Below, one piece after another: positions 4,749 through 16,832 of a stretch of 64,000 bases of DNA. The stretch lies in assembly GCA_021200565.1 (NCBI GenBank), contig JAJQGJ010000011.1, positions 1-64,000 on the forward strand, written 5' to 3'. This stretch comes from Oscillospiraceae bacterium (lineage in GTDB: Bacteria > Bacillota > Clostridia > Oscillospirales > Ruminococcaceae). A program made the position numbers and the translations under genes. Numbering within the stretch: position 1 is the first letter of the stretch; each line of letters begins with the position of its first letter. The notes beneath the pieces were generated by a model. The model ran no database searches. It was not told the DNA's origin and saw only the letters and a list, made by a program, of their open reading frames with translations.

Positions 4749-4774
4749 ACCCCTCCTGGGATTCCGGGAGGGGT
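4749..4774. terminator. Bidirectional terminator between convergent genes
   Basis: ACCCCTCCTGG-GATT-CCGGGAGGGGT near-perfect stem. Confidence 0.7.
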
Positions 4775-4780
4775 ATTATA

Positions 4781-5431
4781 TCAAACCAAAACTTTTGGTT
4801 TACTTTCTTTTAGCTTGTCATCAAGCAATGACAGAATTTCATCTGACAACGATTCAACAGGCGTGGAATTATCTGAGTATAGAAGCTCGGAATACTTTTT
4901 ATCATCATTGCCTTTTGCAAATATGTGAGTCACAGCGTATATGGATTTGCTTCTTGAAAAGCAGTCGCCGTCCCTGAGAGACTGTACAACATAGCCGTCG
5001 CTTAATTCTTCACCGTTTACATTTTTATCCCTGTTTAAACAAAGTGTGAATTTGAGGTCGGTTGTCCCGAATTTATATGACATTGTGTCCGTTTCTATCT
5101 CTTCCAGCATTATGCATTCAGAGGTAGCCATTTTTGCAACATCATCAATGTGTTTCAGTTTCCTCACGCACAAGTCAAAAATGTGGTGAGAATCAAAGCC
5201 AATGTCATTTTCAGTCAGTTTTCCTTTAACGGCATTGCTGTAAAAAGCCTTGGCTGACAAATTAGTGTATACTCCGGTCAGATGCCTGAAATTAGCGGTT
5301 TTGTAGATAACTTCAATATATCTCCCGTCAAATACATACATGAACTTTCTTCCAACGAGATGTTTCTTGTAGGTTATCGCTGAGTCTTTAATCAGCTGTA
5401 CTATTGCTTTTCTGTCATGACTTATAGTCAT
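4781..5431 (-). CDS. PBECR4-like (phage barnase-EndoU-ColicinE5/D-RelE-like) putative nuclease domain protein
   Basis: Conserved-looking core ANFRHLTGVYTNLSAKAFYSNAVKGKL...IGFD remembered from PBECR4 proteins. Start taken as MTISHD (5431) because the upstream extension crosses the ncRNA terminator. Confidence 0.6.
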   Translation of the reverse strand: MTISHDRKAIVQLIKDSAITYKKHLVGRKFMYVFDGRYIEVIYKTANFRHLTGVYTNLSAKAFYSNAVKGKLTENDIGFDSHHIFDLCVRKLKHIDDVAKMATSECIMLEEIETDTMSYKFGTTDLKFTLCLNRDKNVNGEELSDGYVVQSLRDGDCFSRSKSIYAVTHIFAKGNDDKKYSELLYSDNSTPVESLSDEILSLLDDKLKESKPKVLV

Positions 5432-5465
5432 CGTTTTGCGTCCAATCTGGTTGTAGTAAAAGAAA

Positions 5466-5490
5466 AAGCCGGATAACATCACGTCATCCG
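5466..5490 (-). terminator. Rho-independent terminator of the small RNA / attenuator before the PBECR4-like CDS
   Basis: GCCGGAT GACGTGATGTT ATCCGGC followed by TTTTTCTTTT on the minus strand. Confidence 0.75.
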
Positions 5491-5708
5491 GCAGTTGTAA
5501 GCAAATCAGCGGTTTTATGCTGGCTGTCAGCCTCAATGTCCTTCCGAACATCTAATCAGTCGCCGAAATCATTAAGTCCCCGGCGCGGACTGCATCTGTA
5601 ACCGGATGCAAGGTTAAGCAATCGGTGATTGCTTGGCTGTGGGTTTCACCCTGTCCCACATACAGTACAGCTTTTTCGTGCCGCCACACGAGAAGCATCT
5701 CTGCTTCT
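5466..5708 (-). ncRNA. Structured small RNA (~240 nt) with own promoter and terminator; raiA-motif RNA is one candidate identity, not verified
   Basis: Series of near-perfect hairpins on the minus strand: AGAAGCA-GAGA-TGCTTCT, TCGTG-TGGCGG-CACGA, GTGGG..CCCAC, AAGCAATC-ACC-GATTGCTT, TGCATC..GATGCA, AGTCC..GGACT, ATGTTC-GGAA-GGACAT, GGCT-GAC-AGCC, ending in terminator GCCGGAT..ATCCGGC-TTTTT. Confidence 0.65.
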
Positions 5709-5714
5709 ATGTAT

Positions 5715-5743
5715 ATTGTAGCATATTTTGCCCGCAATATCAA
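5715..5743 (-). promoter_or_regulatory. Sigma70-type promoter of the small RNA
   Basis: TTGATA - 17 nt - TACAAT on the minus strand, about 7 nt upstream of the first hairpin. Confidence 0.7.
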
Positions 5744-5784
5744 GAGCTTTTTTGACAATATCAAAATTTATTTTTCTCTTGTCA

Positions 5785-6255
5785 TTACTTACACCTATAC
5801 CTTACCTGCCTGAACCGGATTCCGTCATCTTCTCCCTCAGCCGACACCTCAGCCTGATACTTGGATTTGTCGAATTCAGGGAAATATGCATCCGCTTCGG
5901 GGCATTCTGCATCAATTTCCGTCAGAACGAGTTCATCTGCAAGCTCTAAAGCCTGCGAGTAAATCTGTGCTCCGCCGATGACGCAGCAGTCGTGCCCGCA
6001 GAGCTTAAGCGCTTCCTCAAGCGAGCCTGCAATTTCAACGCCATCTATATCAAGAGACTTATCTCTGGAGACCACAATGTTTCTTCTCTTCGGAAGAGGT
6101 CCTCCTATCGAAAGATACGTCAGCCTGCCCATTATAACCGTCTGTCCAAGGGTTTCAGCACGAAACAGCTTCATGTCAGTCGGAAGGTGCCATATAAGCG
6201 AATTGTTTTGCCCAAGCTCACGGTTTCTGCCAATCGCCGCAACAATCTTGATCAT
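5785..6255 (-). CDS. folA: Dihydrofolate reductase
   Basis: MIKIVAAIGRNRELGQNNSLIWHLPTDMKLFR...VIMGRLTY...IGGPLPKRRNIVVSR; adjacent to thyA. Confidence 0.9.
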   Translation of the reverse strand: MIKIVAAIGRNRELGQNNSLIWHLPTDMKLFRAETLGQTVIMGRLTYLSIGGPLPKRRNIVVSRDKSLDIDGVEIAGSLEEALKLCGHDCCVIGGAQIYSQALELADELVLTEIDAECPEADAYFPEFDKSKYQAEVSAEGEDDGIRFRQVRYRCK

Positions 6256-15926: not shown

Positions 15927-16832
15927 CTATTTACTTTTTTCCTGAACAAGCACTTTCAAAGCCTTCCCTCTGACCTCAATCATCGTCTCCCTGAACTCTC
16001 CGCCTTTCTCACCGTCCACCGTCCAGGCAATCGGCGTCTGGCAACGAAGGGTGATTTTCGACGTCTTGAAGCCGTCCATATACTCGTTGTCGAAATCGAG
16101 CTTCATGACTGATGAAATGATGTGGTTGAGCTCGTTGGTGTTTTTCGGATTCCTGATGAGAAGGACTTCGAACATCCCGTCGTCGAGGCTGATGTTGTCG
16201 ACGCCACGGATCTTCATCCCGCCGACATGAACCGTATTGAGAATAAGTCCTAAGATATAGTCGCCTTTGCCGCTTCTCTCCTCCGACTCAAAGCTCAGCT
16301 TATATGAAGTCATAGCAGGAAGAGAAGCCAGTCCCTCAAGGATATATGCGCTGAAGCCGAGCTGGTTCTTTGCGTTCTGAGGCGTGCTGTAGGAGACCTC
16401 GGCAAGAGTTCCGAAAGCCGCAACATAAGTGAAATATCTGCCGTTCAGATTTCCTACGTCGCAAACGAAAGGAACGCCGTTTATAGCGGTTTTAGCAGCA
16501 TCGAGAGTCCTTGTCGGGATTCCTACCGACTTCGAGAAATCATTTGTCGAGCCGCAGGGAATGTATCCGAAATCTCCCTGATAGCCAGCTGAAATAAACC
16601 CGTTGACAGCTTCGTTCAGCGTTCCGTCGCCGCCTGCGATGACTATTCTGTCAAAACCGCTGTTGCAGTTTTCGGAGACCGTCTCAAGGCAGTCAAGCCG
16701 CCTCTGTGTCGGATGGACAGTGACCGAGTAGCCACCTTTTGTGAAGACATCCACGATGTCGGAAAGCTTTTTTGCAATGGTCTTAGTCCCGGAATTTGGG
16801 TTATATACGAGTAACAGCCTTCTTGAATTCAT
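15927..16832 (-). CDS. Diacylglycerol kinase family lipid kinase (YegS/DgkB-like)
   Basis: LLVYNPNSGTKT; VIAGGDGTLNEAVNG; IPCGSTNDFSKS. Confidence 0.9.
   Translation of the reverse strand: MNSRRLLLVYNPNSGTKTIAKKLSDIVDVFTKGGYSVTVHPTQRRLDCLETVSENCNSGFDRIVIAGGDGTLNEAVNGFISAGYQGDFGYIPCGSTNDFSKSVGIPTRTLDAAKTAINGVPFVCDVGNLNGRYFTYVAAFGTLAEVSYSTPQNAKNQLGFSAYILEGLASLPAMTSYKLSFESEERSGKGDYILGLILNTVHVGGMKIRGVDNISLDDGMFEVLLIRNPKNTNELNHIISSVMKLDFDNEYMDGFKTSKITLRCQTPIAWTVDGEKGGEFRETMIEVRGKALKVLVQEKSK

Follow-up and report, generated by a model that had tools for sequence, protein, structure and literature searches.

A pseudoknot RNA encoded upstream of a PBECR4 gene in a gut bacterium: a probable type III-like toxin-antitoxin cassette

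To our knowledge, the classical type III toxins are all ToxN homologues. Type III toxin-antitoxin loci are composed of a promoter, an RNA of tandem H-type pseudoknots, a Rho-independent terminator and an endoribonuclease gene (PMC5086642). The main exception to ToxN-type toxins found in our literature search was the AbiF system, where the RNA RCd22 (RF03085) neutralises the toxic protein by direct binding; AbiF belongs to the Abi_2 group and is linked to Cas13 (PMC12373285). PBECR RNases are predicted to be metal-independent, with an active-site histidine in a helix and a C-terminal serine or threonine, according to Iyer et al. 2017 (PMC5512222). A literature search, with preprints and most subscription journals outside its scope, showed that the PBECR domain is discussed mainly in this paper on polyvalent proteins, and returned no mention of PBECR4 or PF18813.

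Here, we analysed a locus within a 64,000-nucleotide stretch of Oscillospiraceae DNA, which we call the window. An earlier note, made from the sequence alone, had described a promoter, a strongly structured RNA, a terminator and a PBECR4-like gene in this order, and the same arrangement was found in our analysis, with all the elements on the minus strand:

5715 to 5743, minus strand: sigma-70-type promoter TTGATA-N17-TACAAT (read from 5743 to 5715), 10/12 consensus positions, with TG before the -10 element.
5468 to 5492, minus strand: intrinsic terminator, an 11-bp stem followed by TTTTTCTTTT, which separates the RNA from the gene.
4781 to 5431, minus strand: PBECR4 (PF18813) gene, encoding a predicted BECR-fold RNase whose predicted active site is matched by H50 and S151.
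4754 to 5795, no strand: the whole inserted cassette, missing from the folA-ATPase site of a congener.

The RNA (5712-5445) folded at -95 kcal/mol, with a z of -4.57, and none of 200 shuffles was equally stable, in line with the strong structure that had been claimed for it. The ORF runs from the ATG at 5431 to position 4781, and its only match in Pfam was PBECR4 (PF18813, 85 bits against a cut-off of 27, E = 9e-24). It starts 36 nt past the terminator stem, close to the 35 nt or so first proposed, and this gap is too short for a separate promoter, so that expression of the gene presumably needs read-through of the terminator. As in type III loci, the RNA gene is directly upstream of the putative toxin gene, on one strand and behind a common promoter, and a Rho-independent terminator stands between them.

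Next, the identity of the RNA was addressed. The earlier note had guessed a raiA-motif RNA (RF03072); this identity was rejected, as no match was obtained at any threshold. The window RNA matched no Rfam family at E ≤ 10, even in a 421-base search, nor did it match the covariance model of drum RNA (RF02958) at E ≤ 10, and five loci with relatives of this RNA had no Rfam match at the gathering threshold. The features of the AbiF system were not found at this locus either, i.e., there was neither an RF03085 RNA nor an Abi_2 protein. Comparison of related genomes gave the first four loci (the window copy, a paralogue in the same genome and one locus in each of two other genomes), and a 21-base pattern taken from the 3' portion conserved in their alignment was used against 85,462 species genomes. 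This pattern was found at 69 loci, 62 of which were confirmed by the covariance model at 90 bits or more; class-wide matches to this model that scored no more than about 20 bits were treated as chance. About 60 full-length copies, found through the RNA sequence alone, occur in Firmicutes, mostly Lachnospiraceae, Oscillospiraceae, Selenomonas and Erysipelotrichaceae, and the RNA was also found in single MAGs labelled Treponema, Paraprevotella and Collinsella. Judged from these searches, the RNA of the window and its relatives, here called class A, appear to be a new, previously undescribed family of gut Firmicutes. Of 58 class-A RNAs, 53 were preceded by a promoter with at least 9/12 consensus positions, compared with 43 such cases in 600 random stretches, and a terminator followed 3' of the RNA in 64 of 66.

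The following elements were assigned to the window RNA:

5691 to 5708, minus strand: 5' hairpin P1 (AGAAGC/GCTTCT), with compensatory changes at 6/6 pairs among 57 sequences.
5677 to 5690, minus strand: first ring hairpin CGTG-TGGCGG-CACG, 98.7% paired, with a loop that pairs to CCGCT in the 3' tail (5512-5508).
5615 to 5665, minus strand: pseudoknot unit 1, with stems S1 CTGT/ACAG and S2 TGTGGG/CCCACA (6/6 S2 pairs compensatory) and hairpin AGCAATC-ACC-GATTGCT.
5592 to 5609, minus strand: linker hairpin (GCATC/GATGC) between the two units, 5/5 pairs compensatory.
5535 to 5590, minus strand: pseudoknot unit 2, with stems S1 GTCC/GGAC (4/4 pairs compensatory) and S2 CGCCGG/TCGGCG (6/6), 98.8-99.6% paired, and hairpin GATGTTC-GGAA-GGACATT.
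5508 to 5531, minus strand: last ring hairpin GCTG-ACAGC-CAGC and tail ATAAAACCGCT; the loop ACAGC pairs with GCTGT at 5671-5667, 97.9% paired and mostly invariant.

In the alignment of the first four RNAs, an H-type pseudoknot with a hairpin behind it made up a structural unit that is present twice; compensatory changes were seen at 19 of 44 pairs, and none of 500 shuffles was as good. With 57 class-A sequences, compensatory changes were present at 36 of 51 pairs, and again the observed values were not reached in any of 500 shuffles; standard pairs filled 95.0% of the pair cells, against 31-48% when partners were slid by 1-3 columns. This alignment was fitted to a model that included the S2 stems and hairpins and left out the S1 stems and the ring pairs; the counts for the latter two are therefore the cleaner test of covariation. 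All four S1 pairs of unit 2 were compensatory, with 99.6% pairing across the alignment. The pairing between the first-hairpin loop and the 3' tail was kept in 91.5%, with compensatory changes at 4 of 5 pairs and 0/500 shuffles reaching this value, as exemplified by TACGG/CCGTA in L095, TAAGAG/CTCTTA in L018 and TGTGG/CCACA in L038. The last-hairpin loop, in turn, pairs with the stretch 3' of the first hairpin. Because the first and last hairpins pair mutually in this way, the whole class-A RNA is predicted to close into a ring, whose pseudoknots are backed by covariation of S1 and S2 in unit 2 and of S2 in unit 1. The statement that the RNA lacks tandem repeats has to be revised, since it contains two degenerate units of an H-type pseudoknot plus a hairpin; at the sequence level, Tandem Repeats Finder and a direct-repeat search found no tandem repeat in the window RNA. 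In a relative (G097/L012), the repeat is visible in the sequence, with 29 nt, 90% identity and a spacing of 78 nt, and three others (L097, L070 and L084) carry one unit, not two.

The genes next to the class-A RNAs were then analysed. Among the 62 loci with at least 90 bits, 31 have an intact PBECR4, five a broken one and 19 none, and seven end too soon; hence, PBECR4 is directly downstream and on the same strand in 36 of the 55 full-length RNAs with enough downstream DNA. As background, a search of 392 genomes of the class found PBECR4 (PF18813) in only 29. The first four loci had RNA and gene together in 4/4 cases, in four different neighbourhoods. The orphan count is slightly too high, because one locus listed as lacking the gene (L100) does have a PBECR4 further along its contig; the roughly 1.2 kb between the intact RNA and the downstream gene (from 6911 of L100 to position 16103 of the contig) hold no long ORFs and are possibly an insertion. 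From the protein side, inspection showed that a promoter, a structured RNA and a terminator preceded 31 of 32 distant PBECR4 genes, the sole exception (L115) having a degenerate gene start. A crude terminator scan was positive upstream of 26/32 of these genes versus 11/42 control genes, and the median upstream fold z was -2.4 versus -1.1. The class-A model matched only two of the PBECR4 loci in the 29 genomes. Both sides answer the question raised by the earlier note, i.e., whether this RNA accompanies PBECR4 elsewhere or adjoins it by chance; a strong Rfam match and no linkage had been put forward as the signs of chance adjacency, and the opposite was found, no match and conserved linkage.

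RNA orphans are common and PBECR4 genes without RNA nearly absent, which is the pattern that loss of the toxin before the antitoxin would leave. At the noc locus, where L090 and L053 were compared with L079 and L042, RNA and PBECR4 are both retained in some genomes and the intact RNA stands by itself in others, which looks like loss of just the toxin. The idea that the orphan RNAs are paired with another toxin family was rejected, as their downstream genes are mutually unrelated. In L035, a protein that by eye resembles nucleotidyltransferase-HEPN proteins is encoded 160 nt after the orphan RNA, and this may be chance.

Other RNAs were found ahead of PBECR4. Drum RNA scored above the Rfam cut-off upstream of many PBECR4 genes: among 16 loci, five cases were clear and one was just at the gathering score, and it was also present at four of five plasmid loci and at L154. 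Its hairpin-loop pseudoknot was paired in 56/56 cells, with compensatory changes at all four pairs. It is thus a sister class with its own covarying pseudoknot, unlike the window RNA in sequence and length (the drum model has 112 positions). A three-hairpin class with the same ring logic precedes the gene in L106, L111, L112, L114, L117, L118, L131, L155 and L156; loop and tail were perfectly complementary in the eight members that were tabulated, a match equalled rarely or never by shuffles, and L114 contains a 53-nt tandem repeat (x 2.1). Further RNAs with no Rfam match precede PBECR4 in L127, L128, L130 and L145, and that of L127 apparently forms two pseudoknots as short as ToxI units (about 36 nt).

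The RNA occupies the gene's 5' leader, ahead of the terminator, and this would also suit a cis-acting leader, i.e., a riboswitch- or attenuator-like RNA that controls read-through into the nuclease gene, as the earlier note had contemplated. However, no conserved pairing between the RNA body and the terminator arms was found: the longest helix was 5.3 bp in native and 5.2 bp in mismatched combinations for the 3' arm, and 5.0 versus 4.8 bp for the 5' arm. The attenuator reading was rejected, as nothing competes with the terminator for pairing. Moreover, 19 full-length RNAs persist with no gene to control, and several unlike RNA classes stand ahead of one protein family, so we regard a cis-acting leader as unlikely.

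The RNA-PBECR4 pair is a mobile cassette of about 1 kb. The site between folA and the P-type ATPase gene is empty in a genome of the same genus (L151, G504), with 44 nt in place of 1043 nt, and the insert therefore contains, apart from RNA and gene, no other sizeable element. This congener is one of the genomes that supplied the first four loci, and it thus has the module elsewhere. The genome of the window (G000) has three PBECR4 modules in all; one of the others (L011, on G000:C22) has a class-A RNA and shares its contig with relaxase-like and helicase genes, and the other (L112, G000:C5:114232-114777) has the three-hairpin RNA. PBECR4 is also present on Enterococcus and Streptococcus plasmids, some of them mobilisable or conjugative. 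The Butyrivibrio plasmid pCY360 carries it as well. In L141 (2495-4492), a mobilisable plasmid of Enterococcus faecalis, a PBECR4 gene accompanied by drum RNA is immediately followed by an AbiH gene. Carriage by phages was rejected, as phage records gave no tblastn match with two PBECR4 queries, although the PHROG family phrog_18856 matches and two phage protein models resemble the fold.

About a third of the full-length class-A RNAs and three of seven drum RNAs have no neighbouring PBECR4, and an RNA that stands alone could have a function of its own. It might be an independent trans-acting regulator or a housekeeping RNA, with the gene as a frequent but incidental passenger. Against this, the gene, where linked (36/55), is always downstream and on the same strand, the reverse direction gives 31/32, broken nuclease remnants adjoin intact RNAs, and RNA and gene were inserted together; we consider this explanation highly improbable.

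crRNA guides Cas13-like HEPN proteins, and an RNA acting as guide, activator or sensor of a ribonucleoprotein effector would switch the nuclease on, not off. The near-obligate RNA-protein pairing, the long and structured RNA and the defence-like and plasmid contexts would fit such a role. However, the aligned class-A RNAs have no variable, spacer-like part, the architecture is that of type III loci, and the RNA outlasts loss of the gene, as expected for an antitoxin, which makes a role in activation improbable.

In the protein, His50 and Gly53 were invariant in 26/26 diverse PBECR4 members, and position 151, read from the alignment, was Ser or Thr in 25/26. At the level of sequence, the His50 and Ser/Thr151 pattern matches the active-site description in PMC5512222. 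The domain shares with the PBECR domains of phage polyvalent proteins the predicted metal-independent RNase activity, the helix His and the C-terminal Ser/Thr; here, unlike those, it is a stand-alone protein with an RNA partner, and such a partner is unmentioned in the passages of PMC5512222 considered here. The AlphaFold model of PBECR4 was confident (pLDDT 91.7). A relative was looked for in the PDB, and neither sequence nor fold gave a match. A ToxN-like fold is thus unsupported, and the assignment to BECR is based on Pfam and PMC5512222. No homology to ToxN, AbiQ, CptN or TenpN was found (Pfam, PBECR4 only; PDB, no match), and the locus is therefore not assignable to ToxIN, CptIN or TenpIN. 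PADLOC has no model for an RNA-PBECR4 system.

Collectively, we think it likely that the locus is a toxin-antitoxin cassette of type III-like design, whose toxin shows no recognisable relationship to ToxN. The likeness proposed in the earlier note stands with regard to the linkage, the order of promoter, RNA, terminator and ORF, the tandem pseudoknots, the mobile cassette and the orphan RNAs, and fails with regard to toxin homology. The locus shares with ToxIN, CptIN and TenpIN (and AbiQ) the single promoter, the tandem H-type pseudoknots, the Rho-independent terminator, the endoribonuclease gene (predicted here) and the occurrence on chromosomes and plasmids of Firmicutes; it differs in its protein, PBECR4, which is not recognisable as a member of the ToxN superfamily, and in its RNA, which is built from hairpins and one or two long units and closes through pairing of the first and last hairpins. 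AbiF-RCd22 likewise has a small RNA with two structured motifs, a terminator and then a protein, toxic in AbiF and putatively so here, and differs in its Abi_2 protein and in an RNA motif unrelated to the window RNA.

We infer the following mechanism. The promoter would drive an abundant small RNA, with transcription mostly stopping at the terminator, and read-through would give a little PBECR4 mRNA. The RNA, folded as a closed chain of H-type pseudoknots, would bind and inhibit the PBECR4 RNase, which possibly cuts it into units before being bound. When transcription stops, because a phage takes over the cell or the element is lost, the RNA, presumably the less stable partner, would decay and the freed RNase would cause growth arrest or block the phage.

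A broader reading, to which we give an even chance, is that PBECR4 as a whole comprises the toxins of a large unrecognised RNA-antitoxin superfamily. In it, pseudoknot RNAs as different as drum, the new ring RNA and the tandem-repeat class, among others, would be built on one principle: loop-tail pseudoknots strung into a chain (ring-closed in two or more classes), by which the toxin is kept within a closed assembly of RNA and protein with a new geometry. If a further unrelated toxin has pseudoknot RNA antitoxins, type III-like control evolved repeatedly. PBECR4 genes annotated by domain alone, including those of Enterococcus plasmids, gain a testable function, and so does drum RNA, whose role was previously unassigned; our literature search on it found only structure-prediction and database papers, in which only its structure is discussed.

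Elsewhere in the window, at 71-2569, we observed by eye a small group of kinase-like, PqqD-like, S24-like peptidase and coiled-coil proteins, which may belong to a peptide-modification locus.
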